Part shown: positions 11,918 to 62,564 of the stretch, piece by piece
How the letters are laid out: every line of letters begins with the position of its first letter
Numbering within the stretch: position 1 is the first letter of the stretch
DNA from: a bacterium D16-56
Lineage (GTDB): Bacteria > Bacillota > Clostridia > Lachnospirales > Lachnospiraceae
NCBI GenBank assembly: GCA_003611875.1
Contig: RAYY01000026.1
Span: 1 to 64,000, forward strand
Reading direction: 5' to 3'
Length of the DNA: 64,000 bases
Notes under the pieces: generated by a model
Seen by the model: the letters and a program-made list of their open reading frames with translations, nothing else
Databases searched by the model: none
What the model was told of the DNA's origin: nothing
Made by a program: the position numbers and the translations under genes

Positions 11918-13814
11918 TTGTGTGGTATTGCAGCTCTTTTTTCAAATAGGCAAGAGGATGAAGCCCTTATAAAAGGAATGACGGAGGTGGTTCGACATCG
12001 AGGACCAGACAATCAAAGGATTAAAGGAATATTTCATGATCAAACATGGCTGGGGCATTGCAGATTGTCGGTTATTGACACTTCGGTAAATGGGAATCAG
12101 CCAATGGAATATATGAACGGAAGGTATTGTCTGACCTATAATGGGGAAATTTATAATTATCTTGAATTGCGGCTTGAACTGGAAAAAATGGGATATTTCT
12201 TTCAGACGAAAACAGACAGTGAAGTAATACTCGCGGCATATGATAAATGGGGGGGGGGACTTTCTCAATCATTTTAATGGGATGTTTTCATTTGTTATTG
12301 TAGATTTGGAAAATCATACCTATTTTGCAGCAAGGGATCGGTTTGGCGTAAAACCTCTTTACTATTGGATCCCTTCCGATAAACGATATCTGGCAATTGG
12401 TTCTGAGATTAAGGAATTTACCGTTTTGCCTGGTTGGATTCCAAATGTGAATGGACAAAGAGCTTATGACTATTTAAAGTATGGATTGACAGATCACACA
12501 AAGGAAACCATGTTTCAAAATGTATTTCAGTTACGTGGCGGTGAGTATATACAGGGGACTTTGGATGCTCCAACAGAAAATATCAGGATCACTCGCTGGT
12601 ATCATCCCAAAATTCAGCCGCTTTCTATATCTTCTGCAGATGCAGAGCAACACTTCTTAGAATTATTTGAGGATGCTTGCAGATTAAGACTGCGCTCAGA
12701 TGTTGAATTGGGGTCTTGCCTTTCCGGTGGGCTGGATTCATCGTCCATCGTTTGTGTGGTAAATAATATCTTAAAGAAATCCAAATCTGCTCACATACAA
12801 AAAACTATATCTGCATTATCTTCAAATGCAAGGTGTGATGAAAGCGCTTATGTTCAATCGGTACTTCGGGCAAGGCAAATAGATGGATATTTTGTAGAAC
12901 CTTCTCCTGAAAATCTCTTGAATATTCACCGAAAATTAATTTGGCACCAGGATGAACCATTTGGGTCTACAAGTATTTTTGCACAATGGTGTGTGTTTCA
13001 AAAAGCAAAGGAGATGGGACTGACAGTTATGCTTGACGGTCAGGGGGCCGATGAGCTTCTGGCTGGGTATCATACTTTTTTTGCGCCTATGTTCGCATCG
13101 CTATTTACAAAATTTCAATGGAAAAAATTAGCCAATGAAATGGTGATGTGTAAAAAGCTCCATAACTATTCCTATTCTATTGCTTTAAGAGGTATATTTA
13201 ATACCTTTATGCCAGACAAGCTGTTAGAGTTTTCCAAAAAAATATATGGAAAGCAAGTGTATGGAAACAAATGGTTTTCACCAGAACGTTTAAAAGCAGA
13301 AGAAATTGCGCCAAAATATTACAGGGTTCAGAACCGTGCAAAAACGGTTTTGGAGTTGTCTCGCCAAAAGCTATATGATACAAATTTACCAATGCTGCTG
13401 CGATATGAAGATAGAAATTCTATGGCTCATTCCATCGAAAGCAGACTTCCATTTTTAGACTATAGGCTTGTTGAATGGCTTCAGTCACTCCCCGATGAGC
13501 AGAAACTATACAATGGTCAAACCAAAGTCGTAATGCGGGGAGCAATGAAAGGAATATTGCCAGAGAACGTTAGAATGCGGATGGATAAAATCGGATTTGA
13601 AACTCCGGAGGAAGTATGGGAAAAAGAACATCAAGAGGAATTTCGAAGGCTTATCCAATTTTCTATTGAGTCTGCCAATGGGATTATTACTAAAAATGCC
13701 GTTGATTTCTTTGAGAATATTTCTTCTCATCAAAAGCTGGATTTTTCTATATGGAGAATTATTAATTTTGGCGTGTGGTATGATTTATTTATTAATAAAA
13801 ATCCCAGCACTTAA
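11918..13814 (+). CDS. asnB: Glutamine-dependent amidotransferase, AsnB type (copy 1), split by a poly-G tract
   Basis: In polysaccharide loci, AsnB-type proteins often amidate uronic acids (WbpS is the known example). The start is TTG at 11918 with a strong AAAGGAGGT site. Cys2 of MCGIAALFSN is the glutaminase nucleophile, and RHRGPDN and TYNGEIYN follow. The frame breaks at G10 (12249-12258): upstream it reads AAYDKWGGG and stops at 12277, while downstream DFLNHFNGMFSF continues in the next frame to 13814 with the synthetase signature SGGLDSSS and LDGQGADELL. With nine G the join would be DKWGGDFLNHF, matching the family. So the gene is out of frame as written but otherwise intact, about 631 residues when ON. 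A second copy lies at 15592. Confidence 0.85.
12249..12258 (+). repeat. Poly-G tract G10 in asnB copy 1
   Basis: Ten G on the coding strand, starting inside a Trp codon. Nine (or 12) G would restore the frame, so ten leaves the glutaminase half alone. The putative phase-variable switch is OFF as written. Confidence 0.9.
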
Positions 13815-13857
13815 TATGGTAAAATGACTTGGCAAAAAAGAGAAAGGTACTACTGTC

Positions 13858-14400
13858 ATGACTAGAATATATATTCATCCAACAGCCGAAGTAAGTGAAA
13901 AAGCCTTCATAGGTGATGGAACAAAGATCTGGAATCAGGCACAGATCCGAGAGGGCGCTCATATTGGAATTGATTGTATTATCAGCAAGAATGTGTATAT
14001 CGATGAAAATGTTATAATCGGTTCACATGTGAAAATCCAGAATAATGTCAATGTATATCATGGAGTCACTATAGAAGATAATGTTTTTCTGGGACCTTCT
14101 ATGACCTTTACCAATGATATGTTTCCGAGGGCTTTTAATGCGGATTGGAAAGTGACAGAAACCCTTGTAATGCAAGGCGCATCTATTGGAGCCAACGCCA
14201 CCATAGTCTGCGGGGTGACGATTGGAGAATATGCTATGGTCGGAGGAGGCAGTACAGTAACAAAGGATGTACCAAAACAGGCATTAGTAGTAGGAAATCC
14301 AGCCCGCCAAATCGGGTGGGTGTGCAAGTGTGGAAAACGTTTAGACGATAAGAATATGTGTCCTGGTTGTGGAGAACAATATTCCCTTCCTGAAATCTAA
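13858..14400 (+). CDS. Left-handed beta-helix N-acetyltransferase, WbpD-like, with C-terminal zinc ribbon
   Basis: This 180-residue hexapeptide-repeat enzyme would acetylate the 3-amino group of UDP-2-acetamido-3-amino-uronic acid, the step after the WbpE-like aminotransferase. It begins YIHPTAEVSEKAFIGDGTKI, has repeats through SKNVYIDENVIIGSHVKIQNN, and has the WbpD-type loop GPSMTFTNDMFPRAF. It ends in a short Cys4 ribbon, CKCGKRL and CPGCGEQY, seen in many Firmicute members. It follows asnB by 43 nt. A close homologue lies at 21635, so the locus may contain two different acetylated amino sugars or a duplicate. Confidence 0.88.
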   Translation: MTRIYIHPTAEVSEKAFIGDGTKIWNQAQIREGAHIGIDCIISKNVYIDENVIIGSHVKIQNNVNVYHGVTIEDNVFLGPSMTFTNDMFPRAFNADWKVTETLVMQGASIGANATIVCGVTIGEYAMVGGGSTVTKDVPKQALVVGNPARQIGWVCKCGKRLDDKNMCPGCGEQYSLPEI

Positions 14401-14473
14401 CAATGTTAAAAAGGCAGGAAAATATAATCATATATTGATTCATGGTTCTTTGGATAATTAGGAGGAATAGAGA

Positions 14474-15536
14474 ATGCCCAAAACTCATAGATTATTTATG
14501 CTTGATATTATAAGAATATTATGCGCAGTACAGGTTGAAATGTATCACAGTATTACAATGTTCGGATGCAGTTATGGCAGATTCTTTACTGCCTTAATTC
14601 AATATCTTATTCAACCGGTAATGACTTGCTTCTTTATGATGTCAGGTTTTTCCATTTATTATATGTATCATAATACAAATATAATGGAAAAAAACAGATT
14701 GGTATTATTTTATTTAAAGCGAGCAGTGTCTATTCTTCCTTCCTACTATCTTGTACATATACTTTATGTATTTATTTATCCGAATACGCTTTCGGATTGG
14801 ATTGCATTAACTCCTATTGAATTGTTAGGAATTCAATCCTCTTATAATACTCTTTTTGGTATTCTCCATAATGGCGGGACATGGTTTATCTCCTGCATGT
14901 TGCTTAGCTATTTGTTTTATCCGATTATGCAGATGCTTTTAGCCTCTTTAAATCAGAACTTAAAATGGGGTATATTAGCTGTGCTCCTATTTATTCTGGT
15001 CTATTCCGATTATCTGGTTCTAAAATTTGGAATGCAGGGAAATTATTCAAACCCGATTTTTCGTATGATAGAGTTTTCATGCGGTGTTGTCCTAGGAGCT
15101 ATATGGTTGCCAAAAGAACATAGGTATGTGTGGGGGGGGTATTATTCTGCCTGTGTTTATAATATGGTTTTTGTTTTTAATAACTGAAATAAAACATAAT
15201 GGTTTAGTTAGCTTGTTCAGTCCCATTATAACAATACCTGTTATATGCGTTATATTTATTTTATCACTCTATATAAGAAATGTCAGACTTGAAAACAGTA
15301 AAATTCTGAATTTTTTAAGTTATATTTCCTATTTCTTTTTTTTGGCACAATTATTTTTATGGAAAGTGTCAGCGTCGGTGCTAAATGTAATAGGATTAGA
15401 AGGAAATAAAGCAAAAATTATTATTTCATTTATTTGCTGTTTTACTATGGCGGTTGCTGTAGGAGAATTATATGATAAGCCTGTAAAGAAGCTGTTAAAT
15501 CGTATTATCCGTCAACGTATAAAGATTGGAAGTTAG
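14474..15536 (+). CDS. Acyltransferase 3 family membrane protein, split by a poly-G tract
   Basis: This is a polytopic O-acyltransferase (OafA/WecH family) that would acetylate a glycan sugar at the membrane. The start has AGGAGGAATAGAG directly upstream. The N-terminus MLDIIRILCAVQVEMYHS holds the family's helix 1 with its Arg and His, and GGTWFISCML follows near residue 140. The frame breaks at G8 (15132-15139). Upstream reads YVWGGYYS and ends at 15187. The real continuation is GIILPVFIIWFLFLITE, running to 15536 with several more helices. Seven or ten G would join them as about 353 residues, the usual length. It is OFF as written. Confidence 0.82.
15132..15139 (+). repeat. Poly-G tract G8 in acyltransferase 3
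   Basis: Eight G after a T within a Trp codon, followed by TA. Seven or ten would be in frame. OFF as written. Confidence 0.88.
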
Positions 15537-15591
15537 TAAGGAAAGTTTCCAGGTTCAATAATAAATATTCAAAGATCAATAGGAGTCTAAA

Positions 15592-17426
15592 ATGTGTGGA
15601 ATTGCAGTGTTATTTAATTCATCAGGGATTCATGAAAATGATAAAAAGCTACTTGAAAACATGAGTGAAAGAATTAAGCATAGAGGCCCTGATGGAAAGG
15701 GCTTTTTTTATACCGCGAATCTTGGTATGGCACACCGCAGGCTTTCGATCATGGATATCAGTGAACACGGAAGCCAGCCAATGTCATATTTGGATCGTTA
15801 TACGATTGTGTATAATGGTGAAATTTATAATTATATTGAAATAAGAAGATCTCTTGAAAATAAAGGATACTGTTTTCAATCTAATACAGATACAGAAGTT
15901 CTGTTAGCTGCCTATGATTATTATGGGGCAGAATGTTTAAAGTTATTAAATGGAATGTGGGCATTTGCATTATTTGATAAAGAGACGAATCACTTGTTGG
16001 TCTCCAGAGACAGATTTGGTGTCAAGCCACTTTACTATTTCAAAAAAGAGCATTATTTTTTATTGGCATCAGAAATAAAGGCTATCTTATGTGATCCAAG
16101 TATTGAAAGAAAAACAAACAATGAAATTGTATCTGATTACTTAACGGACGGACTGTTAGACCATACAAATCACACCTTTTTTCAAGGAATAGAAAGATTT
16201 CCGTCAGGAACATATCTGTCTATTGATCTGAACCATCTACAGGTATGGGAATTTAAGGAATATTATAAAGCAAATTTTACACAAATAACTTCCAGTAAAA
16301 TAAATCAGATAGAGCTTGCAAAAAGATTTAGAAGATTATTTGATGATTCAGTAGAAAAAAGGCTTAGAGCGGATGTGAATGTAGGTTCTTGTTTATCGGG
16401 AGGTCTTGACTCAAGCGCCATTGTCACAGCCGTTTACAATATATATAAGAAAAAGGAGAAGGAACAACATACCTTCTCTTTTTGCCCGTCAGATAAAAGA
16501 ATAAGTGAGAAGTCATACATGGATGATGTTCTCCTCAATAAAAATATTAATTCTCATATTATAGATGATAAGAAAATAGCGATAACCCGTGATTTCGAAA
16601 CCCTTATAGATATACAAGATGAACCTTTTGGATCTATGAGTATATATGCCAGTTATCTCGTGTATAAATGTGCGGGGGGGGTACTCCCCGTATAACTGTA
16701 TTATTAGATGGACAAGGAGCCGATGAAATCTTATGCGGATACAGAAAGTCCAGAATATATTATATTAAAGAGTTGATGAAGGAAAAACACTACTTTACTG
16801 CTGGCAAGGAATTGATACTGTCAATCAGTCAGTTAAGAACAACAAATTCTGTTAAAGGTGATTTGAGGAAAATAAAAAACATATTTTCCCGGTCAAAAGG
16901 CGCTGATTCAAGAAGTAAATATTTAACATCAGAATTTTTGCATTTTTATTCCAGATCCTCCGTCTATACTAATGATAATTTTCAAAATTTAGATGTTAAT
17001 AGTATTTCATTACCAGTTTTGCTTCGATATGCAGATCGAAACTCCATGGCTTCTTCTGTGGAAAGCAGGCTTCCGTTTCTTGATTTCAGGCTTGTTGATT
17101 TATGTTCTAAGATTCCTTTATCCATGAAAATAAAAAATGGTTATTCTAAATATATTATGAGATTGTCTCTGGATATGCCGGAATCCATCAGAAGGAGAAA
17201 AAGTAAATATGGATTTTTTGTACCAGAGAAAATGTGGCTCAGAAATAATGAGAACTATTTTAAAACATATTTTAATTCCCCCAATTTTAGAAGCTCAAAA
17301 TTTATTGACAGACTTACTATACTTAATGATTGGGATAGCTTAATGAGTGGACAGGATGAGGCATTTTTGTTTCGGGCAATATGCTTAGAGGCTTGGATGA
17401 GACATTTTAATGTACAATCATCATGA
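15592..17426 (+). CDS. asnB: Glutamine-dependent amidotransferase, AsnB type (copy 2), split by a poly-G tract
   Basis: This is a second AsnB-type amidotransferase with an ATG start and AGGAG 7 nt upstream. MCGIAVLFNSSG gives the nucleophile Cys2. KHRGPDGKG, VYNGEIYNY, RDRFGVKPLYYF and SGGLDSSA are all present before the break. G8 (16674-16681) shifts the frame within the synthetase domain: upstream ends CAGGVLPV at 16695, and the continuation is TPRITVLLDGQGADEILCGY to 17426. Six or nine G would restore an enzyme of about 611 residues. As written the protein would have an intact glutaminase and a truncated synthetase, so it should be inactive. It is only moderately similar to copy 1, so the two probably amidate different residues. 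Confidence 0.85.
16674..16681 (+). repeat. Poly-G tract G8 in asnB copy 2
   Basis: Eight G spanning a line of Gly codons, followed by TAC. Six or nine would be in frame. OFF as written. Confidence 0.88.
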
Positions 17427-17453
17427 ATTTATCTTGGAGGAGAAAATGCTACA

Positions 17454-19331
17454 ATGTTGGCAAGCATGATTCAAATAATAATTATATTTACTGGAAGCGC
17501 AGTGGGAGCTTCCTTTTTTCAGAAAAAGTCCGAAGAATTGATACCCATTACAATTATGATGATATCTTGTATATTGTTTATTTTTGGATTTTGGGGAAAT
17601 TTGAGAGCAGGGCTTTATTTTGTATGTGTTTTATCCATAATACTATATGTTCTGTCTGCTTTTCAAGTTATACGTACAAAATCGTATATGCCTACATTAC
17701 AATGTTTCATATCTCCTTGTGCAATCATTTTTCTGATTCTTTGTGTCATTTTGGCCTATTTGAATTATGGAAAATTAGCGGCAGAATGGGATGAATTTTC
17801 CCATTGGGCAGATAGTGTGAAGGCAATGGTTCACATCAACGACTTTATAACAAATCCCCTGTCTCATTCGGGGCATAAAAGCTATCCTCCGTCAATGACA
17901 TTATTTCAATATTTTAGTGTCAAACTAGATCAAAAAATAATGCCCAATAATAAATTTGCTGAGTGGAAATTATTTTATTCTTATCAAGTGTTTTCTCTTT
18001 CTATGTTTTTACCACTCCTCAAATTTATTTCATTAAAAAAACCGATTGAAGCATTGGTTACAATTTGCACTGTTTGTCTGATTCCGCTTTTCTTTTATGA
18101 TAATTTCTATTATTCCATTTATATTGATGCATTTTTAGGTATTATGGCAGGATGTGCATTTGCTTCTATTCTTTTTTTGGAAAAAAAAGATGCTTTATAT
18201 AATATTTATATTACTTTAAATTGTATTGTCCTTGTTTTGGCAAAAGAGGTAGGTTTATATTTTGCGATTTTTACAGCACTAGCCTTTTTAATAGATAAAG
18301 TTAATTCTAAGAAACTAATATCCTCTTGTTTTCCGCTATTTGCCATAATCGTTTCCAAAGCAATGTGGAATCAGGTAGTTGCAAGAATAGGGGGATCTGC
18401 AAATAAGTCAAAAGCAATTAATATTTTCGAATATATGAATATGTTCTTTCTACATCAGGATACAACCTATAAACAGACAGTTGTGGAGAATTTCAGAACA
18501 GCCTTTTATGAAAAAACAATAAGAATTGGCACCACAAATATTCAGGTAAGTTACTTTGGAATAGCAGTTTTATTAATAGCTTTACTATATATTATGTATC
18601 ATTTCTATTCCAAACACCCCATTCTTTTAGAAAATACCAGTAACAAAAATATTTATGTCTTCATAGTATTACATTTTATATTATATATTTTTTTCCTTGG
18701 TGCATCGTATGTCTACAATTTTGTTGAGCGGGAAGGATTAATTCTTGCTTCATATGACAGATATATAAGAATATCCTATTTGTCTGTGTGGGTTCCGCTC
18801 ATAATTGGTTTACTCCTTGCAATTACAAAAGTAAATTTCACAATCAATAAAAATCTAATATTTGTATCATTGTTTGCGTTTGTTTTGCTAATTAGTCCTA
18901 TGCAAAGCGTTTCTATCTTTGCAAACCATGTTACCGTCCGGGCTTCGCAAAATATTCGCAATCGATATTCAATTATAATTGAAAAAATAGAAAAAAACTG
19001 TAAAGAAAATGAAAAAATATATTTTATTTCCCAAGGAAATGATGGTTACGATATTTCCAATACAAGATTTAGCGTAAGGCCTGCGTGGATATATGACGGC
19101 TTCAGCTTAGGTGGGCCATTTTATGACGGTGATATATGGTCAAAACAATTAACTGTGGAGGAATGGAGAAATACTTTATTCGAGGATGACTGTGATTATG
19201 TTGCAATATATCGGTTAAATGATTATTTTTATCAAAACTATAGTTCTATTTTTCAAAATGCCGATGAGATCTGCGAAAATGAACTCTATAAATTTGATAA
19301 AAAGAAGAAGCTGCTAAGGAGATGTGACTAA
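17454..19331 (+). CDS. Large polytopic membrane protein, possible GT-C glycosyltransferase
   Basis: This 625-residue protein has about 12 hydrophobic helices and a hydrophilic C-terminal domain of roughly 130 residues. After the third or fourth helix comes AEWDEFSHWADSVKAM, followed by HKSYPPSM. An acidic pair in an early extracytoplasmic loop is typical of GT-C enzymes (PMT and ArnT types), which use polyprenyl-phosphate sugars outside the membrane. The next gene is a polyprenyl-phosphate GT2 with a GtrA domain, exactly the partner such an enzyme needs. The start is ATG 17454, with GGAGGA about 12 nt upstream. Specific function is unknown. Confidence 0.65.
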   Translation: MLASMIQIIIIFTGSAVGASFFQKKSEELIPITIMMISCILFIFGFWGNLRAGLYFVCVLSIILYVLSAFQVIRTKSYMPTLQCFISPCAIIFLILCVILAYLNYGKLAAEWDEFSHWADSVKAMVHINDFITNPLSHSGHKSYPPSMTLFQYFSVKLDQKIMPNNKFAEWKLFYSYQVFSLSMFLPLLKFISLKKPIEALVTICTVCLIPLFFYDNFYYSIYIDAFLGIMAGCAFASILFLEKKDALYNIYITLNCIVLVLAKEVGLYFAIFTALAFLIDKVNSKKLISSCFPLFAIIVSKAMWNQVVARIGGSANKSKAINIFEYMNMFFLHQDTTYKQTVVENFRTAFYEKTIRIGTTNIQVSYFGIAVLLIALLYIMYHFYSKHPILLENTSNKNIYVFIVLHFILYIFFLGASYVYNFVEREGLILASYDRYIRISYLSVWVPLIIGLLLAITKVNFTINKNLIFVSLFAFVLLISPMQSVSIFANHVTVRASQNIRNRYSIIIEKIEKNCKENEKIYFISQGNDGYDISNTRFSVRPAWIYDGFSLGGPFYDGDIWSKQLTVEEWRNTLFEDDCDYVAIYRLNDYFYQNYSSIFQNADEICENELYKFDKKKKLLRRCD

Positions 19332-19332
19332 A

Positions 19333-20401
19333 ATGTCGTATAATAACTCTAATGATAAATGTCCGGTTATAATCCCCTCATATGAACCAGATGCCATGTT
19401 GAATCATCTCTGTGCTTCATTAAAGGATGCAGGCATTTTTAACTTTATTGTCATTGATGATGGAAGCGGCCAGGAATACCAGCCAATATTTGAAATGATA
19501 GAAAAAAATTATCATTGTAAAATTCTTCGCCATGCAGTTAATCTTGGAAAAGGAAGGGCATTAAAGAATGCGTTTAACTACGTGCTAAACGAGTGTCCAA
19601 ATGCAATAGGAGTAATTACTGCAGACTCAGACGGACAGCATACTCCTGATGATATAAAAAGGTGTATGCTTTGTTTGTGCGAAAATCCTGAAAGCCTGAT
19701 ATTAGGCTGCAGAAAATTTCAAGGAGAGCACGTGCCATGGAGAAGTAGGATTGGTAACAAGCTAACAAAAAATATATTCCGATATGTTTGTGGCATTAAA
19801 ATCTCTGATACACAAACTGGATTAAGGGGCATTCCCAAATCTTTGATGCTTGATGCATTAACAATAAAAGGTGAACGGTTTGATTATGAAACAAATATGT
19901 TATTGAATGCGCATGATAAATGTAGTTTTATAGAAGTGCCTATAGAAACAATCTATGAATCAAAATCAAACCATAAAACACACTTTGAGCCGTTATATGA
20001 TTCATTCATGATTTATAGCTTGATTTTTTTCTATCTGTTCAGCTCCATTCTTTCTGTTCTGATAGATTTTAGTATGTTTAGTATCTCCATTAATACAGGA
20101 GCTAATATATGGATTGCTACAATGTTAGGGCGGTTATGCTCTACCATTGTTAATTTTACGGTAAATAGGAGTGTGGTATTTAAATCAAAAGGGAGCATAT
20201 TTAAACAATGGGGGGGGGTATCTTGCTTTAGTTTGTGTATCAGGCATTATTTCGGCACTGATGGTACATGGACTTTCACAAATATTTGGAGGGAAAATAA
20301 TTATATTAAAGGCTATCGTTGAAGGAAGTCTGTTTTTTTTCAATTATTATGTACAACGCAACATTATATTTGCAAAGAAAAGAGAGAATAAGTCATTATG
20401 A
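19333..20401 (+). CDS. GT2 glycosyltransferase fused to a GtrA domain, split by a poly-G tract
   Basis: The N-terminal domain is a GT-A polyprenyl-phosphate glycosyltransferase like DPM1/GtrB: VIIPSYEPDAML, FIVIDDGSGQEY, HAVNLGKGRALKNAF and TADSDGQHTPDD (the DxD region), with a C-terminal helix pair. The GtrA-like membrane domain begins near SSILSVLIDFSMFSI. The frame breaks in its third helix at G9 (20210-20218). As written it ends with an unrelated tail at 20322. With eight G it would read KQWGGYLALVCVSGIIS and run to 20401 through GSLFFFNYYVQRNIIF, the normal GtrA end. ATG 19333 has AAGGAG 11 nt upstream. The truncation spares the GT2 domain, so the OFF product may lack only flipping or anchoring. 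Confidence 0.83.
20210..20218 (+). repeat. Poly-G tract G9 in GT2-GtrA
   Basis: Nine G beginning in a Trp codon and followed by TAT. Eight would be in frame for the GtrA half. OFF as written. Confidence 0.9.
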
Positions 20402-20463
20402 ATATAGTTGGTAAAAACGAGAAAACAACCGATGGGACAGTCTGCTATAAGAGGAGAATTTGA

Positions 20464-21369: not shown

Positions 21370-21379
21370 GGTAATTAAT

Positions 21380-21601: not shown

Positions 21602-21634
21602 TGCCAGAAAATAGCAGAAAGGATAAACGCTGCA

Positions 21635-22225: not shown

Positions 22226-22265
22226 AGATTTGATGTATTACCCCGTACTAAAACAGGAGAAAGCT

Positions 22266-24005: not shown

Positions 24006-24020
24006 GCATAGGGGGATTTT

Positions 24021-24436
24021 ATGTTGAAAATAAATCATATAGGCTATGCAGTAAAAAAACTAGACCGTGCTGTCAGTCAGATGGAAGATATCGGATATAA
24101 ATTTGGAAATATGGTTGCGGATCAAGATAGAAGAATTTGGATCGTATTTGGAAGAAAGGATGGATACCAGATTGAGTTAATATCTCCTATCTCAAAAGGT
24201 TCTCCGATAGATAAAATATTGAAAAACTCTGGACCGACACCTTATCATATTTGCTACGAGTCAGACTGCTTTGATGCAGATATAGAGCAATTAACCTGTG
24301 GGGGGGGTATAAAGTCTTAATTCCGCCGGCACCAGCACCAGCACTGGGAGGAAGAAAGGTTATTTTTTTATATTCTATTGTACTTGGATTAGTAGAAATT
24401 GTACAGGACACAGTTTCATCCAAAACACAACCGTAG
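24021..24436 (+). CDS. VOC-family (glyoxalase-like) protein, split by a poly-G tract
   Basis: This small vicinal-oxygen-chelate protein resembles methylmalonyl-CoA epimerase. It begins KINHIGYAVKKLDRAV with the first metal His, then YQIELISPISKGSP with the Glu, and TPYHICYESD with the second His. The frame breaks at G8 (24300-24307). As written it stops at 24320 after TCGGGIKS. With nine G it would continue YKVLIPPAPAPALGGRKVIF to the stop at 24434-24436, ending in LGLVEIVQDT, which restores the last metal-ligand strand. It starts 15 nt after the FkbH-like gene and may act on the carrier-bound intermediate. Confidence 0.8.
24300..24307 (+). repeat. Poly-G tract G8 in the VOC gene
   Basis: Eight G after TGT, followed by TATAAA. 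Six or nine would be in frame. OFF as written. Confidence 0.88.
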
Positions 24437-24476
24437 ATTATTAAAACAGTGCCAATATATAAAGAGGTAATAGATA

Positions 24477-25243
24477 ATGAAGTTTACTTATTTAGAGTAT
24501 GAGAGATTAATTTATTTCTTACTTGACAATGGATATACTGTCACAGGGTATGACAATTACAGACATGTAGAATATCCGGTTATTCTCCGACATGATATTG
24601 ATACATCATTAGACAAAGCTGTAAAAATGGCAGAACTAGAAAATTCTATCGGGGGGGGGGGCAAATTAGATCTACATATTTCGTATTGATTTCATCAGAT
24701 TTCTATAATGTATTTTCTAAGCATTCTCTTGAATGTATCTATAGAATAAGAGAACTTGGACATATAATAGGATTACACTTTGATGAGAAAAAATATATTC
24801 CTACAGGCAAATCGTGGAAAAAAGAGCTGCTCATGGAAAATATTCTTCAGGAGAAAAAAATATTAGAGGAAATGACAGGTATAAACATTAACTCTGTATC
24901 CATGCATGTGCCTTCAAAAATGACTTTACAAGCAGATTTGAAAATTCCAGGTATGATTAATTCTTATAGTCGCGAATTTTTTGAGGAGTTTAAGTATGTA
25001 TCAGACAGCTTTCATCGATGGCGCGAAGATGTACGGGATGTCGTGACGAATACAAAGCCAAAAAGGCTGCATGTATTGACACACGCATTTTGGTATAATG
25101 ATAAACCTATGACAAGAAATGAATCTATTCGGGACTATATTCAAGAAGGTGAAAAATACCGATATGGATTAGTGGAAGCCAATATATTTCCTCCGGGCAT
25201 TAAATTAACAGACTGTTTTATAGACAAGAGCGGGGATGTTTAA
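24477..25243 (+). CDS. Polysaccharide deacetylase-like protein, split by a poly-G tract
   Basis: The first part has VILRHDIDTSLDKAVKMAELE, a form of the NodB-type metal-binding Asp-containing motif (HDID). It is followed by G11 (24651-24661), after which the frame is lost and stops at 24689. In the other frame the family continues without gap: QIRSTYFVLISSDFYNVFS, then GHIIGLHFDE and MHVPSKM, to 25243. Nine or twelve G would give SIGGGQIRSTYFVL and a protein of about 255 residues, normal for this subfamily. It probably removes acetyl groups from a glycan or sugar intermediate. It is the last gene of the plus-strand locus. Confidence 0.8.
24651..24661 (+). repeat. Poly-G tract G11 in the deacetylase gene
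   Basis: Eleven G between an Ile codon and CAA. Nine or twelve would be in frame. OFF as written. Confidence 0.9.
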
Positions 25244-50450: not shown

Positions 50451-50476
50451 AAAAAATCCTCACTCTTATTATTATT

Positions 50477-51580: not shown

Positions 51581-51593
51581 AAGTTGATTCCCC

Positions 51594-51998
51594 CTAAGAG
51601 CTGTTAAATAGTCTTCTATTCCAATAATACGACAACAAAAAACATCCTATAGTTCCTGTTATTTGCGAAAGATACTTATTAAACATAATAACCTCCACAA
51701 ACAACCAAATAAGGATGCTGTTAATGAAAATGAGTAAAATTTTTTGTATAATAAATCCTTTAAGTTTTTTTATTAAAAATCTTCTCTTGCTAAACACATA
51801 AGTTGCAGTCATAAAATATCCAATACTTACAGAACATACATATGCAATTAGATTGGAAATCAAATAATAGATACGTAAATATTCGTTAAATGCATAGTAT
51901 AATAACATATATAAAAATGTAGTTAGCCCATTTACAAGCACATATTTAATAAACTCTTTTTTCGCGGACTGGAACGTAATAATTTTGCTCCTGTTCAC
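51594..51998 (-). CDS. GtrA family small membrane protein
   Basis: This 134-residue protein has four helices in the GtrA pattern: FIKYVLVNGLTTFLYMLLYY, then LISNLIAYVCSVSIGYFMTA, and a C-terminal FLLSYYWNRRLF, with the Asn-Arg end typical of the family. GtrA proteins are thought to help flip polyprenyl-phosphate sugars. No GT2 partner is adjacent. The likely start is GTG 51998, inside the end of the methyltransferase gene, with no strong ribosome site, so translation may be coupled to that gene. Confidence 0.78.
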   Translation of the reverse strand: MNRSKIITFQSAKKEFIKYVLVNGLTTFLYMLLYYAFNEYLRIYYLISNLIAYVCSVSIGYFMTATYVFSKRRFLIKKLKGFIIQKILLIFINSILIWLFVEVIMFNKYLSQITGTIGCFLLSYYWNRRLFNSS

Positions 51999-52785
51999 TA
52001 TTATTTGTTTTTTTCTTTAATATGGTAAAAGTTGCAACTGACATTTTTTTTCCTATGAAATTATACATAAAAGCTTTATCAAGATGAAAAACTTTTTCTA
52101 CAATACCGACATTTCCTTTATTTAAAGCAGGGAAAACATCTGGATTATACCATAACAAATATGCTAATAATCCTGGATATATCTGTCTTACTATCTTCAT
52201 ATTGTTTTTTATGTACATAGTATTCAGCTCTTTTAAAGAAAACCTTCGTTCTGTTTTTTCATCAAATACTGGATTTTTGATATATATATACTCACATATT
52301 TTCTTATAAATATAATTATTATATGTGGGTTCGATATTAATAAATATTCCGCCACTCTTAAGTAAAAACACACACTTTTTAATAATCTGATTTGCATAAT
52401 CAGGAATATGATGTAATCCTCCAATTAGAATAATGATATCATATTTTTTATCCGACTTAAAAGAGATTACATTCTGTACATAAACATTTATTTTGGGATT
52501 TAATTGCTTTGCACATTTGATGATTTCCTCACTATAGTCAAACCCTTCATACTCCACTTCAACATTGAAAAGATTCTCTAGAATATACTTTCCTTCTCCA
52601 AAACCACACATAGGTTCTAAGACAGTAATTTTCTTTTTACCTTGTATATAGTCCTTTACCCCCCCCCTGAACAATTCTTTATAAAGCAAATCATGCAGAC
52701 GTTTTTGTTTTTCCCCTCTACGGGTTCTAAAATATTCTTGAGCAATGTTATTAAAATGATCCCGTTGCCTCTCCAACTTATGCAT
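51946..52785 (-). CDS. Class I SAM-dependent methyltransferase, carrying an in-frame poly-G tract
   Basis: This 279-residue methyltransferase has the SAM motif I region VLEPMCGFGEGKYILE, acidic EYEGFDYSEEIIKCAK, and motif IV ILIGGLHHIPDY. It probably methylates a glycan sugar. The ATG at 52785 has AAGGAG upstream; a longer reading from 52845 lies in the GT gene and is unlikely. G9 (52659-52667) encodes FRGGV before the SAM domain, near residue 42, and both sides are in one frame, so the gene is ON as written. A change of one G would truncate it to about 50 residues. Confidence 0.83.
   Translation of the reverse strand: MHKLERQRDHFNNIAQEYFRTRRGEKQKRLHDLLYKELFRGGVKDYIQGKKKITVLEPMCGFGEGKYILENLFNVEVEYEGFDYSEEIIKCAKQLNPKINVYVQNVISFKSDKKYDIIILIGGLHHIPDYANQIIKKCVFLLKSGGIFINIEPTYNNYIYKKICEYIYIKNPVFDEKTERRFSLKELNTMYIKNNMKIVRQIYPGLLAYLLWYNPDVFPALNKGNVGIVEKVFHLDKAFMYNFIGKKMSVATFTILKKKTNNSEQEQNYYVPVREKRVY
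52659..52667 (-). repeat. Poly-G tract G9 in the methyltransferase gene (in frame)
   Basis: Nine G on the coding strand, followed by TAAAG. Nine is in frame here. Eight or ten would cause early termination. ON as written. Confidence 0.9.
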
Positions 52786-53905
52786 TACTTTTATTCTCCT
52801 TAAATTTATATATATAATCGATGAACTCAAACCATCTCCTTCCAATTACTTCTATACTTAACAGTTGTTTGATTTTTTCTGCCTCTTTTCCCATCATGGA
52901 TGCCTGTTTGGGATTCTGGATTAGAAATTCCATCGCATTGGATAATGATAAGCAATCTCCAACTGTTACAAGAACCCCATTTTTTCCAGTTTCAATTAAG
53001 CTTTTGGGTCCTCCACAGGGACAATCTGTTGAAATGCAAGGGATTCCCAAAGACATTGCTTCAATTAGTGCATTAGGGACTCCTTCAAAATTAGAGGAAA
53101 GAATAAAACCACGTGAATTTCTAATAATGAAAAGTAGTTCTTCTGTTTTTTTAGCTCCTAATAATAAAATCCGTTTATCCAGGCCAAGAAAAGATATTTT
53201 TTCCTGTAATGATTCTTTTAGTTTTCCTTCTCCAATAATATATAATTGATAATCTGCAAAGCGTTTTGCAATGATTGAAAATGCATCAATTAACAATTTT
53301 TGATTCTTTTGTTCGATAAGTCTTCCAACATTAACAAAATATTGTCCATTGCCTTTATCCCCTACTATACAATTTTCATTGGTGAAAACAGGATTAGGTA
53401 TAACAACTGCCTTTTCGTGCGCCACTTTTGAATAAAAATTAAATGCGTCCTGTGTTTGGAAAACAAATCCATCTGCATATTTCATTAAGTTTCTGGAGCA
53501 TATCTTTACAATTGTTTTTCCGCTGAAATGAGTGGGATCATTTCTTTCTGATACAATTAAGTTAATGTTAATACCAAAACATGCAGGAATACAATAGATA
53601 CAAAAAGGAACACCCATTACTATCATACAATCTATTTTTTCCTGGTTAATAATTTTTCTGAGCTTAACTATTTTTTTAGGAAAACTCAACTTTTCAAAAT
53701 ATGTGTTAACATTTTTACTATCTGACAGAGAAAATCTTTGAATTCCATCCGGCAATTCATACTCATTATTATCATATCGAATTGTGATAATTGAGGTTGT
53801 AATTGCCTTTTCATGAAGAAAATATTTGGCTAGTTCAAGGCTTACTCGTTCAGAACCTCCTCTGGCTAAAGAGCCACAAAAAAAAGCTATTTTCATATCA
53901 TACAT
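52778..53905 (-). CDS. Glycosyltransferase family 4
   Basis: This 375-residue GT-B enzyme reads MKIAFFCGSLARGGSERVSL at the N-terminus, where the GGSE loop is typical of GT4. The C-terminal domain has FVNVGRLIEQKNQKLLIDAF, YIIGEGKLKESL and SSNFEGVPNALIEAMSLGIP, with the complete EX7E motif. It overlaps the methyltransferase start by 8 nt. Similar enzymes add N-acetylgalactosamine or glucosamine, but the substrate cannot be read here. The start may be the second Met, three codons in. Confidence 0.86.
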   Translation of the reverse strand: MYDMKIAFFCGSLARGGSERVSLELAKYFLHEKAITTSIITIRYDNNEYELPDGIQRFSLSDSKNVNTYFEKLSFPKKIVKLRKIINQEKIDCMIVMGVPFCIYCIPACFGININLIVSERNDPTHFSGKTIVKICSRNLMKYADGFVFQTQDAFNFYSKVAHEKAVVIPNPVFTNENCIVGDKGNGQYFVNVGRLIEQKNQKLLIDAFSIIAKRFADYQLYIIGEGKLKESLQEKISFLGLDKRILLLGAKKTEELLFIIRNSRGFILSSNFEGVPNALIEAMSLGIPCISTDCPCGGPKSLIETGKNGVLVTVGDCLSLSNAMEFLIQNPKQASMMGKEAEKIKQLLSIEVIGRRWFEFIDYIYKFKENKSNA

Positions 53906-53908
53906 AAT

Positions 53909-55081: not shown

Positions 55082-55113
55082 CTAAATATTATCTCCTATA
55101 TATTTGTCATTCA

Positions 55114-56571: not shown

Positions 56572-57149
56572 TTATTCTCCTTTCTGTTCCACACTTTACT
56601 GCCATTATTACTTATCTTTTTTGCCGGATTACCTGCTATTGTAATACCGCTTTCATAAAAAGATTTATTAACAATTGACATAGCCCCAATCGCGATATCA
56701 TCAGCAATAAACACACCTCCTACTAATGTAGCTCCAATCCCTATCACAACATTATCTCCTACTGTTGGAGAACTACTGTCCCTTCCAGATGCAACGAAAG
56801 CAGTATTAAAATGAACTCTTGCATTTTTCCCTACTTTAGCTCTTGGGTTTGTCAAAACAGGTCCTAAATGCATGATTCTTAATCCTTTATCAAATACATT
56901 ACAATCTATTCTCAATCCTGTAGATTGTTTAAGATAATTCATTACAACCCAATAACAAGAGTATCTAATTTTGTGACCTGTATTAAGATGATATTCTGCT
57001 TTTCTAAGAATTTTTTGAAATTGCCAAATTGTTGTTATCTCATCATGAGCTAAATACCTAGCTAATCCATGAAAACCTGTATGTAATGGATACCTGGATC
57101 TTTCATAATCCAGCCATTCCTTCAGTTCTTTTTTACTTTCAATCATCAA
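56568..57149 (-). CDS. Serine acetyltransferase-like hexapeptide protein
   Basis: This 193-residue protein has a helical N-terminal half as in CysE-type enzymes (RYPLHTGFHGLARYLAH), then hexapeptide repeats from about residue 105 (LGPVLTNPRAKVGKNARVHF, VGDNVVIGIGATLVGGVFI) ending ITIAGNPAKKI. In capsule loci such proteins usually O-acetylate a sugar. It overlaps both neighbours by 4 nt, so it is tightly co-translated with the FdtA-like gene before it. The cysteine pathway is unlikely. Confidence 0.75.
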   Translation of the reverse strand: MMIESKKELKEWLDYERSRYPLHTGFHGLARYLAHDEITTIWQFQKILRKAEYHLNTGHKIRYSCYWVVMNYLKQSTGLRIDCNVFDKGLRIMHLGPVLTNPRAKVGKNARVHFNTAFVASGRDSSSPTVGDNVVIGIGATLVGGVFIADDIAIGAMSIVNKSFYESGITIAGNPAKKISNNGSKVWNRKENN

Positions 57150-57553
57150 AAATTCCCCGTTGAAATATATTCTAAAAAAGTGTCATAATCTCTAATATAA
57201 TCATTTTCATCATATAACTCAGAAGCCATTACCATTAAAACCGCATCGGACGAAAAATCAAACATTTCCCTCCACATGTTAGAGGAAACATAGAGTCCTT
57301 CATAAGGTTTTTCCAATGGTACAATTTTAGCCTCCATACCATTGTCAAGTTTAACTTTACAGGTTCCATGAATGCATACAAGAATCTGCTCCAAGTTTTT
57401 ATGGGCATGTTTACCACGTACAATCCCTTTTGCTGTCTCATACATATAATAAACCCGTTTAATTCTAAATGGTATATCCTTAAATTCTTCTAGTGAGATT
57501 AATTGGCCTCTGTCATCACCGTGTGGTTGGAATACATATTTTATAACTTGCAT
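57146..57553 (-). CDS. FdtA/WxcM-like dTDP-sugar 3,4-ketoisomerase
   Basis: This 135-residue cupin converts dTDP-4-keto-6-deoxyglucose to a 3-keto sugar. It has RGQLISLEEFKDIPFRIKRV, the cupin strand YMYETAKGIVRGKHAHKNLE with two metal-region His, ILVCIHGTCKVKLDNG and YDENDYIRDYDTFLEYI, the classic C-terminus. AGGAGG lies 8 nt before its ATG. The upstream paralogue's stop directly abuts this start. Two FdtA-like genes in tandem may make 3,4-ketoisomers of opposite C4 configuration (FdtA versus QdtA type) or form a heteromer. Confidence 0.88.
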   Translation of the reverse strand: MQVIKYVFQPHGDDRGQLISLEEFKDIPFRIKRVYYMYETAKGIVRGKHAHKNLEQILVCIHGTCKVKLDNGMEAKIVPLEKPYEGLYVSSNMWREMFDFSSDAVLMVMASELYDENDYIRDYDTFLEYISTGNF

Positions 57554-58039
57554 TCATGACACCTCCTGACAAAAAGACTCATACATCAGAGGGCATTTTC
57601 TACTATTAAGATATAGAATTACCCCCCCCCCCTCAATTTCATTTACAAATTCTTCATAATTTCGAATATATTCATCAGGATCATAATGTGTACTTGCAAG
57701 AACCAGCAATACAGAATCCTTGCTGAAATCGTACATATCCTTCCATACCATTGTTGGAAGATAGATGCCAGTATGTGGACGATTCAGACAATATATCGCT
57801 TCATTTCCCTCTCCATCTTTTACCTTTACCTTGCTTTTTCCTGCTACATTAATAAGGACAAATTCTGTTTTACGATTTGCATGCTGCCCTCGTATTACTC
57901 CTTCATCAGAACCGTAGATGTAAAAAGCTCTTTTAATTTCAAATGGAATATCTTGTTTGCCTTCAACAATTACCAGATGACCTCTGTCATCTCCTCGCTG
58001 TGAAAACTCTAGCATTTGTACTCTATTCATATTATGCAT
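57554..58039 (-). CDS. FdtA/WxcM-like ketoisomerase with poly-G-encoded C-terminal tail
   Basis: This second cupin has RGDDRGHLVIVEGKQDIPFE, RAFYIYGSDEGVIRGQHANR, and YDPDEYIRNYEEFVNEIE where the family normally ends (about residue 136). A G11 tract (57622-57632) and 22 extra residues follow, ending SFCQEVS, whose codons carry the ribosome site of the next gene. Only this tract length keeps the frame open to the next start. With 10 G a stop comes at once, and with 12 G after a few codons. The enzyme should work in all three states; what changes is translational coupling. Total 161 residues as written. Confidence 0.85.
   Translation of the reverse strand: MHNMNRVQMLEFSQRGDDRGHLVIVEGKQDIPFEIKRAFYIYGSDEGVIRGQHANRKTEFVLINVAGKSKVKVKDGEGNEAIYCLNRPHTGIYLPTMVWKDMYDFSKDSVLLVLASTHYDPDEYIRNYEEFVNEIEGGGVILYLNSRKCPLMYESFCQEVS
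57560..57575 (-). repeat. 16-bp direct repeat at a gene junction, copy 1
   Basis: TTTTTGTCAGGAGGTG on the minus strand, identical to 61357-61372. It contains the ribosome site of the FdtA-like gene at 57553 and lies 46 nt after the poly-G tract. Confidence 0.75.
57622..57632 (-). repeat. Poly-G tract G11 at the 3' end of an FdtA-like gene
   Basis: Eleven G followed by TAATTC. It sits just beyond the normal end of the protein family. Only a length of 11 (or 8 or 14) keeps the frame open to the next gene. Confidence 0.9.
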
Positions 58040-58057
58040 AACAGTTTCTCATTTCTA

Positions 58058-58573
58058 TTATTTTATGGTTCTTATTTTTTTTGCGGGAATACCTGCATAT
58101 ACAGAGAATTCTTCTACATCTGTGATTACAACTGCACCAGCTCCCACAATTGCTCCTTTTCCAATATGAATGCCTGGCAGTATCGTAACATTTGCTCCAA
58201 TCCAAGCATCATCTTCTACTACAATGGAATTTTTCTTTATAAGATATTTTGATACATATTTATTGTTTTTTAAAATATGGCTGTTATTTGGTTCTGACTG
58301 AGTAATAAAACATACATTAGGAGCAATTGATACATTTTTTCCGATTATCACAGGAGCAGCAGATGCAGCAGATGCAACCACTCCTGGATTACTGTATGAA
58401 CCTTCTCCCATTATCACATGATTATATTTAAGTGCAATTTTTCTTATTCGTGCGTCAGGATAATACAATGCGACGAATTTTTGTATTCTTTTAGGGAGCG
58501 TTTCCATATTATTCTTCAGATAATTATATAAATTATCATCCAATGACTCTAGTTCATACCCCCCCCCCAACAA
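58058..58573 (-). CDS. Hexapeptide acetyltransferase joined to the formyltransferase gene by a poly-G tract
   Basis: This left-handed beta-helix acetyltransferase of the FdtC/WbbJ type reads GKNVSIAPNVCFITQSEPNN, EDDAWIGANVTILPGIHIGK and FSVYAGIPAKKI. It probably acetylates the amino group made by the FdtB-like enzyme. No ATG or ribosome site precedes it; the only starts are TTG codons just before G10 (58559-58568). With nine G its frame would be continuous with the formyltransferase upstream, giving one fused protein of about 450 residues. As written it would depend on a TTG start or re-initiation, so it is probably poorly made. Confidence 0.78.
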   Translation of the reverse strand: MLGGGYELESLDDNLYNYLKNNMETLPKRIQKFVALYYPDARIRKIALKYNHVIMGEGSYSNPGVVASAASAAPVIIGKNVSIAPNVCFITQSEPNNSHILKNNKYVSKYLIKKNSIVVEDDAWIGANVTILPGIHIGKGAIVGAGAVVITDVEEFSVYAGIPAKKIRTIK

Positions 58574-59408
58574 AGCGATACCCGATTTTGACTAAATCAC
58601 ATAGGTTTATTCCTTCCTTCTCTCCCCATGCTTTTACCTTTTTTATAATTAGATACCCATCTTTGATTTTTATCCATACACCCTTATGATCAATACTTAC
58701 GACTCTCCCTACAGGACCAAAATATCTTTTTTCTACAATCAGATGGTCTTCTATTTCATACCGTTTTCCCTTGATCTGTAACATAGGATGAGGATATGGA
58801 TGAGTCAACGCTTTAAAGAATCTTTCCATCATTTGATTTTCCATATAGAAGTCAAGATAACAATCATCCAAGTTTCTTTTGGCTCCAAACGTTGCAGAAT
58901 CGTTATCCTGCGGCTTTGCTTCAATACGCCCTAAAGAATAGTCATGTAAGACTGTTCCCGCATGCTTATATACTAAATGATCGATTTTATCATTAATAGA
59001 TTGAATTGATTGGCCTGTATAGGAGAAAGAAAACTGAGAAATAATATCACCTGCATCCATATATTCATTGACCAAATGAAACGTGATTCCCAATTCTTCC
59101 TCCCCATTCATAATGGCATAAAATGTTGGATGCATTCCTCTATATTTGGGTAGTAAAGCTCCATGTATATTGATATATGTTTTCTTTTCTAATTGTTGTT
59201 TTGTTATAAAATCAGCATACCCGCAAAGAAAAACATATTTACAGTCAACCGAATCAAAACTATCTATTATTTCATCATTACGTCTTTTTTCTTTCAATAT
59301 ATTCTGCGGATTATCTTTTATTAAGTATATTTTATCAAAGTAGGGAAATAATGACCTATAGCCACCAAGTCCATAGTGAGAACCTCCTGCAAAAACAATT
59401 TCATTCAT
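58554..59408 (-). CDS. Sugar N-formyltransferase (formyl_trans family)
   Basis: This enzyme uses 10-formyl-tetrahydrofolate to formylate an amino sugar nucleotide. The catalytic Asn, His and Asp are in NIHGALLPKYRGMHPTFY and LVNEYMDAGDII (Asn near 81, His near 83, Asp near 117). The C-terminal subdomain ends KAWGEKEGINLCDLVKIGYR. The frame finishes FVGGGV directly in G10 (58559-58568), with TGA just beyond it. It is about 284 residues and complete as written. One fewer G would read straight into the acetyltransferase. Its ATG overlaps the preceding PLP gene's stop. Confidence 0.84.
   Translation of the reverse strand: MNEIVFAGGSHYGLGGYRSLFPYFDKIYLIKDNPQNILKEKRRNDEIIDSFDSVDCKYVFLCGYADFITKQQLEKKTYINIHGALLPKYRGMHPTFYAIMNGEEELGITFHLVNEYMDAGDIISQFSFSYTGQSIQSINDKIDHLVYKHAGTVLHDYSLGRIEAKPQDNDSATFGAKRNLDDCYLDFYMENQMMERFFKALTHPYPHPMLQIKGKRYEIEDHLIVEKRYFGPVGRVVSIDHKGVWIKIKDGYLIIKKVKAWGEKEGINLCDLVKIGYRFVGGGV
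58559..58568 (-). repeat. Poly-G tract G10 at the formyltransferase-acetyltransferase junction
   Basis: Ten G followed by TATGAA. Nine or twelve would fuse the two genes. Ten ends the first at once and leaves the second without a good start. Confidence 0.92.
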
Positions 59409-61349: not shown

Positions 61350-61350
61350 C

Positions 61351-62010
61351 TCAAGCCACCTCCTGACAAAAAACAAGGTTGGCTATGGAGAGATAGAAAT
61401 AAATATTTACAGAGTGGTAAAATCCCCCCCCCCCAAGATTTCTTACTATCTTATTGTTCTCCTCAAACAAATTTATATCTTTTGTTTTTGAATTACACAT
61501 TATACACCCTCGTTCTATTTCCATACGGATCTCAATATCCGTATCATTTATAAAATACTGTTCTTGCTCTACAAAACCGATATTCTTATAGATGTGTCTT
61601 GCTGCCAGATTCATTTTATTAACTACCAGTGAAAATTTATTTTGTTTTAGATATAAAATTCCGATACACATACTCATTAAAATCAATGACTCCCCCAAGC
61701 CATTTCCTTTGGCTGAGTCTTCACCAATTACAAGTTTTCCTATCTCACACTCGTCATTAACAAAGCTATATAGTGCGACGGTTCCAACAGATCGAAATCG
61801 TTTATAATCCGCAACAAAAAACAATACATCTTTATTATGGATGTATTGTTCAAACCAATTTTCTTGTTGAGACTTTGAGATCTGTCCAACAGGTCTTAAA
61901 AATCTACTTATGTTTTCTTTGTTTCTCCATTGCCGCAATGGTTCAATATCATATCTTCGTAAAGGACGAATCAATATATCACCATATTCTGCACAAAATT
62001 TGTGATCCAC
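61351..62010 (-). CDS. GNAT acetyltransferase with poly-G-encoded C-terminal tail
   Basis: This GNAT-fold N-acetyltransferase resembles RimJ/PseH types: ILIRPLRRYDIEPLRQWRNK, SVGTVALYSFVNDECEIG, AKGNGLGESLILMSM (acetyl-CoA loop), NLAARHIYKNIGFVEQEQYF. The domain ends about residue 170. A hydrophilic stretch and G11 (61424-61434) follow, then a hydrophobic tail ending FCQEVA, whose codons hold the next gene's ribosome site. As written the frame reaches the next start. With ten G it stops after four residues. The start is GTG 62010 with AGGAGATAACA. Confidence 0.82.
   Translation of the reverse strand: MDHKFCAEYGDILIRPLRRYDIEPLRQWRNKENISRFLRPVGQISKSQQENWFEQYIHNKDVLFFVADYKRFRSVGTVALYSFVNDECEIGKLVIGEDSAKGNGLGESLILMSMCIGILYLKQNKFSLVVNKMNLAARHIYKNIGFVEQEQYFINDTDIEIRMEIERGCIMCNSKTKDINLFEENNKIVRNLGGGGFYHSVNIYFYLSIANLVFCQEVA
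61357..61372 (-). repeat. 16-bp direct repeat at a gene junction, copy 2
   Basis: Identical to 57560-57575. Here it provides the ribosome site of the FemAB-like gene at 61349 and lies 51 nt after the poly-G tract. Confidence 0.75.
61424..61434 (-). repeat. Poly-G tract G11 near the 3' end of the GNAT gene
   Basis: Eleven G followed by ATTTTAC. Eleven reaches the next gene's start, ten stops at once, and twelve runs past the start and ends 13 nt inside the next gene. Confidence 0.9.
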
Positions 62011-62040
62011 TGTTATCTCCTAATTGTCTTTTGCAATTCT

Positions 62041-62564
62041 CTAAGTTTCTTCATCCATTGTGCTTCGAAGCATCTCCGCTTTTTTGTTTTGATTTAGTAA
62101 GTCAATGTCATATGGAAGCCGATTTCGTTTGCATTTTTCTGCATACTCCGTGGTACTCATAATAAACTTTGCTGGTACCCCCCCCATACTTCTCCATCCG
62201 ATATACTTTTATTTACTATGCTGCCCGCAGCAATAATACAATTATTTCCGATTTTAACACCAGGGAGAAGTATACTTTTGGCTCCAATAAAACAATTATC
62301 CCCTATTCGGATCCTTCCAAATTTGTATATATCTTTATAAGCTTCATTCTTATGAATCACAAATGTTGCACCATCATGAGTTATAAAAGAAACATCGAAA
62401 GATATTAGAACTCTATTTCCAATAGAAATCATATAGGGTTCACTTCCCCAGTTCGTTTTACCTGTAATCTTAACATCTTCTCCCATTTTAACCCCAAGTT
62501 TTCTACCATATGCTGCTGGTTCATAGTATAATCTCCAAAGGGCATTTCTGAGCCTTATGAACAA
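62041..62564 (-). CDS. Maltose/galactoside-type hexapeptide O-acetyltransferase, split by a poly-G tract
   Basis: This left-handed beta-helix acetyltransferase of the WbbJ/LacA type reads WRLYYEPAAYGRKLGVKMGE, GSEPYMISIGNRVLISFDVS, THDGATFVIHK with the active-site His, and CIIAAGSIVNKSISDGEVWGG. The frame breaks at G8 (62178-62185): as written it ends YQQSLL at 62157. The family continues VPAKFIMSTTEYAEKCKRN, which is encoded in the next frame down to a TAG at 62041-62043. Six or nine G would give EVWGGVPAKF, the family consensus at six. It is OFF as written; loss of the C-terminal helix probably impairs it. Confidence 0.85.
62178..62185 (-). repeat. Poly-G tract G8 in the hexapeptide acetyltransferase
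   Basis: Eight G beginning in a Trp codon and followed by TACCA. Six or nine would be in frame. OFF as written. Confidence 0.9.

Follow-up and report, generated by a model that had tools for sequence, protein, structure and literature searches.

Phase variation in Neisseria and Moraxella is mediated by slippage in simple repeats of surface genes, and other repeat units are used there too. Campylobacter, which to our knowledge lacks MutS1, bears a phasome of poly-G runs. Here we describe eleven runs of 8 to 11 G in a 64,000-nucleotide stretch of DNA (the window) from bacterium D16-56 of the family Lachnospiraceae, presumably a gut inhabitant. The window is the start (positions 1 to 64,000) of the 72,608-base contig RAYY01000026.1 in a draft genome of 5.54 Mb in 202 contigs (GCA_003611875.1). 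The runs are probably contingency loci, at which genes are switched by slippage, and many long G runs of this genome and its relatives are followed directly by the dinucleotide TA. Individual loci are labelled L and the genomes compared G; f1 is the family of D16-56.

The window runs would work in the same way as those of the Campylobacter phasome and agree with its published features, as given in the available part of PMC6321876. Helicobacter canadensis has promoter, mid-gene and C-terminal poly-G runs in one genome, as does D16-56. In the available part of its description (PMC2823697), the genes with runs include a glycosyltransferase, methyltransferases, a polysaccharide deacetylase and a formyltransferase with a 3′ run; the 3′ runs change protein tails, and two coding sequences would merge in one frame. 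All of these bacteria belong to another phylum than D16-56. Clonal length variation was shown in Campylobacter (PMC6321876) and read-level variation was reported in H. canadensis (PMC2823697), whereas genomes alone are compared here. D16-56 further differs from Campylobacter in possessing MutS1, and the TA flank was measured in D16-56. Mononucleotide repeats of at least 8 are under-represented in Firmicutes as a whole, according to the accessible part of PMC4060949, and Clostridia are among the groups surveyed in PMC2831843, which, from the portion available, may hold relevant counts.

G runs in the window and across the genome

An earlier sequence-only reading of this DNA had listed the eleven runs, all of which were confirmed. 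The window has 36.7% GC and contains three G/C runs of length 6 and none of length 7, so the long G runs stand apart as a class. Under a first-order Markov model, 0.59 runs of at least 8 are expected against the 11 observed, which bears out the view that chance cannot account for them. Judged by the longest open frame beside the run, G lies on the coding strand at all eleven, again as proposed; under a stricter rule, requiring an open reading frame (ORF) of at least 100 aa over the run, nine call G and two give no call. The operon at 25408-48084, described as free of runs, indeed holds no G/C run of 6 or longer.

Across the genome, 40 G runs of at least 8 were found, 29 of them outside the window, and 11 of the 40 thus fall within 1.15% of the genome (p 8e-13, for a window singled out for its runs). 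By the ORF rule, 28 of the 40 call G and 1 calls C, with 11 giving no call. The proposed confinement to glycan genes holds loosely and in the window only: even there, the run at 24300 lies in a glyoxalase-superfamily gene and that at 24651 in a gene without Pfam match, and genome-wide it fails, with several of the 29 outside runs in non-glycan genes. The word network had also been used, but nothing indicates coordination among the runs.

Coding runs flanked on each side by 40 or more open codons were taken as testable for frame. D16-56 has 20 such runs, 7 in frame and 13 out of frame, the latter close to the two thirds that free slippage would give; 8 more fall short of 40 codons on one side. 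G004 has 9 in and 15 out, and G003 has 6 in and 4 out, which together with D16-56 makes 22 in and 32 out. Run flanks were compared over seven genomes, and 12 pairs align across the run, 8 between genomes and 4 within one. Lengths are unequal in 3 of the 8 (9/11, 8/10 and 11/10, the flanks of the 8/10 pair being 94% identical) and in 2 of the 4 (9/8 and 9/11, one of which is an alignment of 106 bases in which one copy lies 75 bases short of a contig end). The flagellin gene of D16-56 has a G9 run (L025:4810-4818) 58 bases before its ORF, where G004 (L163) has G11, over 365 aligned bases at 84% identity. Flagellin-type upstream sequence with a G9 run was also seen at a contig end in G003 (L207).

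All 24 genomes searched in the genus carry at least one run (range 1 to 52), as do 263 of the 299 genomes sampled from f1. Judged by the single protein FBPase, the closest named genome is that of Clostridiaceae bacterium 1XD21-29 (91% identity), here G004; other close FBPase matches carry Clostridium, Enterocloster and Lachnospiraceae names, which suggest the family and a gut habitat. Outside the window, the scan took in 30 ORFs located at 23 of the 29 runs or next to them, leaving out L022, L027, L030, L032, L035 and L036. Run-bearing genes there encode Acyl_transf_3 (2 runs), MBOAT (2), AlgX-like (1), methyltransferase (2) and glycosyltransferase (1, near the start) proteins. Non-glycan sites comprise the 3′ end of a LytTR regulator gene, positions in or before genes for solute-binding proteins with lipoprotein-like starts, and a zinc-ribbon protein gene, and further runs stand upstream of choline-binding-repeat and flagellin genes. 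One run (L026:4665-4673) lies in the spacer of a promoter, TTGACA-N10-G9-TATAAT, that precedes an FHA-domain gene. Runs closely preceded by TTGACA were also noted in G004 (L157, L160, L164 and L166) and G003 (L208).

Among 45 run ORFs from 85 runs of G003 and G004, glycosyltransferase, formyltransferase, hexapeptide and acyltransferase families are present, and none of these four is among the matches listed for 45 control ORFs of D16-56 (each list being the best 25, out of totals of 56 and 103 families). In a formyltransferase homologue of G004 (L173), the run lies toward the 3′ end of the ORF. Two ORFs of Dam/D12-type DNA methyltransferases and one of a group II intron reverse transcriptase also overlap runs in these two genomes.

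Genes at the eleven runs

Past seven of the window runs the gene continues in another frame, one run keeps the frame, and three lie in a tail or gene junction. The genes are:

11918..13814, plus strand: asparagine-synthetase-type amidotransferase gene 1; G10 run 12249-12258, then AC, inside the glutamine-amidotransferase domain; out of frame
14474..15536, plus strand: membrane acyltransferase (Acyl_transf_3); G8 run 15132-15139, then TA; out of frame
15592..17426, plus strand: asparagine-synthetase-type amidotransferase gene 2; G8 run 16674-16681, then TA; out of frame
19324..20401, plus strand: glycosyltransferase 2 with GtrA membrane domain; G9 run 20210-20218, then TA, inside GtrA
24021..24320, plus strand: glyoxalase-superfamily gene (Pfam Glyoxalase_4); G8 run 24300-24307, then TA, near the C-terminus
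24477..25243, plus strand: gene without Pfam match; G11 run 24651-24661, then CA; out of frame
51946..52845, minus strand: methyltransferase (Pfam methyltransferase families); G9 run 52659-52667, then TA; in frame, with 59 and 236 codons on either side
57554..58039, minus strand: FdtA/QdtA-like sugar ketoisomerase; G11 run 57622-57632, then TA, just past the domain (Pfam FdtA, residues 7-134)
58058..59408, minus strand: formyltransferase (Formyl_trans_N, Formyl_trans_C), then hexapeptide acyltransferase (Hexapep); G10 run 58559-58568, then TA
61351..62010, minus strand: GNAT acetyltransferase (Pfam Acetyltransf_3, residues 12-147); G11 run 61424-61434, then AT, in the C-terminal tail
62157..62564, minus strand: hexapeptide acetyltransferase (Pfam Hexapep); G8 run 62178-62185, then TA, near the C-terminus

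Upstream of the plus-strand runs lie genes for a UDP-glucose-type dehydrogenase, a UDP-GlcNAc 2-epimerase, two oxidoreductases, Wzy- and Wzx-like proteins and glycosyltransferases. Asparagine-synthetase-type amidotransferases amidate uronic acids in polysaccharide loci. The two copies in the window are split by their runs, and both match uninterrupted frames elsewhere in the same genome. In gene 1, the N piece reaches position 84 of the GATase_6 profile and the C piece starts from 80, the pieces aligning to residues 6-121 and 118-619 of a 625-codon frame (L023). In gene 2, the Asn_synthase profile is matched at 2-114 before the run and at 119-335 after it, and the pieces align to L023 residues 6-363 and 368-582. 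Both also match a 628-codon frame in L055.

The acyltransferase at 14474 covers positions 4-201 of the 326-position Pfam profile before its run, and 131 open codons follow in another frame; the part after the run matches no Pfam family by itself, and no homologue of either piece was found among the loci compared. GtrA is cut at about half, with profile positions 2-64 of 117 before the run and 60 open codons after it in another frame. Past the run at 24300, 42 codons stay open in another frame; the G004 counterpart (L040/L176, 71% identity) has G8 at the same place, and in a G004 paralogue (L046) the run is interrupted by an A (GGGGGAGGGG) and the frame reads on. Both pieces of the gene at 24477 match homologues in G021 and G295 that likewise lie in two frames around a G10 run, and its C piece corresponds to part of a 632-codon frame of G004 that has no interruption (L046/L144).

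On the minus strand, the ketoisomerase at 57554 finds its best Protein Data Bank (PDB) matches in QdtA and has three alternative tails of 21, 0 or 4 codons, the present one being 21. Two FdtA-like ketoisomerase genes stand in tandem at 57146-58039, with a run only in the upstream one. The formyltransferase ends at the run at 58559, from which the hexapeptide acyltransferase frame is open, so that the two would be fused or separate depending on the frame; after the run the frames are open for 166, 2 and 0 codons, the present one being 0. Since the best PDB matches of the formyltransferase are Met-tRNA formyltransferase and ArnA, with sugar formyltransferases such as WlaRD weaker, a sugar role for this pair is suggested by gene context; the acyltransferase matches galactoside O-acetyltransferase-like chains. 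The GNAT tail after the run at 61424 comprises 27, 23 or 4 codons by frame (at present 23). At 62178, the present frame stops after 6 codons and another is open for 44, a continuation that we take to be the usual tail of the hexapeptide acetyltransferase family.

The glycan region as a whole is not conserved in the genus, pieces of its first part being found in 7 of 24 genomes (D16-56 included) and of its second part in 4 of 24. Viral contigs searched with one glycosyltransferase of the window gave no match. The operon at 25408-48084 stands between the two glycan clusters; a scan of 10 of its 13 largest ORFs found one Tubulin_2 domain, two vWA domains, two weak matches to GTPase-associated domains (GAP1-N2 and DO-GTPase2) and five ORFs with no match. 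With its tubulin-like, vWA and GTPase-associated proteins, it presumably resembles predicted conflict systems.

The TA flank

TA directly follows 8 of the 11 window runs. Among runs of at least 8, it was found after 18/40 in D16-56, 30/52 in G004, 20/33 in G003 (where one run at a contig end has no flank) and 5/9 in G001, 73/134 in sum; G004 and G003 were picked by run number after TA had first been noticed in D16-56. None of eight further runs outside this sum (from G002, G005 and G006, including one of the eight of G006) is followed by TA. For runs of 4-7 in these stretches, the share with TA behind them is 4-6% (164/2742 in D16-56, 41/675 in G004 and 38/990 in G003), and the odds ratios of long versus short runs are 13 (p 7e-12), 21 (p 5e-20) and 42 (p 5e-19), respectively. 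TA is rare at length 6 (7/134) and length 7 (1/9), indicating that the change falls between 6 and 8. G303 (15/20) and the part of G169 read (13/20) were picked for high TA counts and serve as illustrations only. G169 (1.6 Mb, 68% complete) has the densest set of runs seen, 214 of at least 8 G, 115 of them then TA.

In D16-56, G004, G003, G303 and G169, TA follows 63/101 runs in sense ORFs of at least 100 aa and 33/63 elsewhere, and it occurs in every codon phase and also at promoter and noncoding runs. A protein motif was rejected as the cause, the 39 TA runs that are followed by 80 or more open codons being spread over all three phases (6, 16 and 17); the low count of 6 is partly expected, as TAA or TAG would be stops there. 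A promoter -10 box was rejected for most runs: T stands at position +6 in 19 of the 73 TA runs, and a TTGA[CA]A at 3-12 bases before the run was seen in only 2/40 runs of D16-56, 4/52 of G004, 2/32 of G003, 1/20 of G303 and 1/20 of G169. Two dispersed repeats may be present: L019 and L036 are similar (80% over 335 bases), each with a G9 run followed by TAAAATGAGAAT, and in G003 the runs at L185, L194, L199, L201, L205 and L208 are followed by TACG, mostly with short G-strand open frames beside them.

The TA step is weakly stacked and perhaps eases slippage in cis. TA might conceivably be part of the switch as a sequence-specific determinant, whether as a cis slippage hot spot favoured by selection for switching or as a target at which a trans-acting factor of some Clostridia lineages lengthens or destabilises G runs. 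We advance this tentatively, since runs outside ORFs carry TA almost as often as those inside them.

In the 299 f1 genomes, G8-TA sites number 622 against 169 of the reversed pattern, a rough yardstick, since the background for AT ahead of a run may differ from that for TA behind one. Of the 171 genomes with either pattern, TA is above the control in 132, below it in 25 and equal in 14. In the 44 genomes with at least 10 runs, TA follows 426 of 1094 runs; 24 of the 44 genomes exceed an assumed 8% background at p <0.01 and 20 show no clear excess. The biggest exceptions are G317 (7/121), which has 61% GC and, in the 12 runs read, lengths of 8-9 only, so that its runs are taken as chance runs, and G236 (0/28), where 10 of the 12 runs read have no G-strand open frame of 100 codons beside them. 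TA thus accompanies many, not all, run-rich genomes of f1. A class-wide scan of 291 genomes gave 105 TA against 5 control sites in families f4, f20, f53 and f70, which were singled out after the counts were seen, 113 against 112 in the remainder outside f1, and 2 against 4 in f1 without D16-56. Loci of G218, G295, G216, G250 and G271 were taken at TA sites and are illustrations, not an independent test of TA.

For other phyla, 40 genomes reached through named loci were considered, and the run-richest Bacteroidales-type ones among them have few sites each (TA/control: a Muribaculaceae metagenome-assembled genome (MAG) 9/4, Bacteroides pyogenes 5/2, Mediterranea 4/0, a Rikenellaceae MAG 4/3). 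In the available part of a Campylobacter table (PMC7173850), the three G-strand runs are those of Cj1318 and Cj1335, then TAT, and Cj1296, then AGG; seven further runs lie on the C strand and are given without a second 3′ base. A Campylobacter phage stretch used as a yardstick held no G run of 7 or longer.

Probable slippage switching and its alternatives

The sequence-only reading had interpreted the runs as slippage switches, and, stripped of glycan confinement and of the network, this remains the best reading of non-chance, coding-strand G runs. Contingency loci are favoured because of the excess over chance, the positions and G-strand calls, the out-of-frame runs, the uninterrupted amidotransferase paralogues, the unequal lengths in 5 of the 12 aligned pairs, the broken run of L046, the promoter-spacer run and the likeness to Campylobacter and H. 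canadensis. Replication slippage in runs of 8-12 G would shift their length by single bases and switch genes at random. Mid-gene runs (the two amidotransferases, the acyltransferase, GtrA and 24651) would turn an enzyme on or off, runs near a 3′ end (57622, 58559 and 61424) would swap tails or join neighbouring proteins, and promoter-spacer runs elsewhere in the genome would alter the -35/-10 spacing. The expected outcome at the window would be a population with mixed amidated, acylated, formylated and methylated surface polysaccharides; the rate and reversibility of slippage, the surface phenotype and its advantage are presumed.

Several observations weigh against this reading. The part of G169 read (20 runs in 120 kb of one contig) has 13 runs in frame and 2 out among 15 testable, so not every lineage looks freely switching. 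Seven of the 12 aligned pairs are equal in length and only 8 are between genomes; the differences come from between-genome and within-genome pairs, with one strain per species, and run lengths may be miscalled in a draft assembly. G004 (29 G, 6 C and 17 no call of 52), G003 (14 G, 9 C and 10 no call of 33) and the stretch of G169 that was read (16 G, 4 C) show a weaker strand bias. MutS1 exceeds the cut-off in 23 of 24 genus genomes, D16-56 included, and repair could keep slippage low. Loss of mismatch repair as the cause of the runs is likewise not supported, MutS1 being intact in a check confined to that gene.

Mutation pressure offers another account, in which G runs, above all those with TA behind them, are lengthened by the replication machinery of the lineage and tolerated in genes under weak constraint, switching being a by-product without advantage. 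The similar frequency of TA in sense ORFs and elsewhere and its presence in all codon phases are what a mutational cause would give, and G003 has runs in apparently noncoding places; the clustering of runs in the window (itself picked for its runs), the 28 to 1 strand bias of D16-56 and the repeated occurrence in acyltransferase, formyltransferase, hexapeptide and methyltransferase genes nevertheless make this account unlikely. That the genes are dead, or the frames sequencing or assembly errors, is suggested by seven out-of-frame genes in a draft of 202 contigs, but the frames on either side are otherwise open over long stretches and similar kinds of genes bear runs in other genomes. Campylobacter runs of like length are moreover read accurately on Illumina, according to the PhasomeIt authors in the available part of PMC6321876, and we consider decay or error highly improbable. 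We give equally little credence to programmed ribosomal or transcriptional frameshifting, by which a single DNA length would yield the full protein: split genes whose frames are open before and after the run might be read in this way, yet all three phases occur, aligned runs differ in length, and promoter-type runs are untranslated.

Among the matches listed from open-licence literature, no poly-G phasome was found in Lachnospiraceae or other Clostridia, in line with the earlier remark that a dense Firmicute set is not well described, and no report of a TA flank of G runs was found. As far as those matches go, both TA after long G runs and a probable poly-G switch set of Campylobacter type in another phylum are novel. 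With TA as a simple marker, such switches would be easier to find, and the flank would also hint at why a G run slips. If the runs switch, annotation pipelines would call such genes broken. Such Clostridia are among the main inhabitants of the gut, and switching runs would let one population show many surface-sugar variants to antibodies, phages and neighbours.

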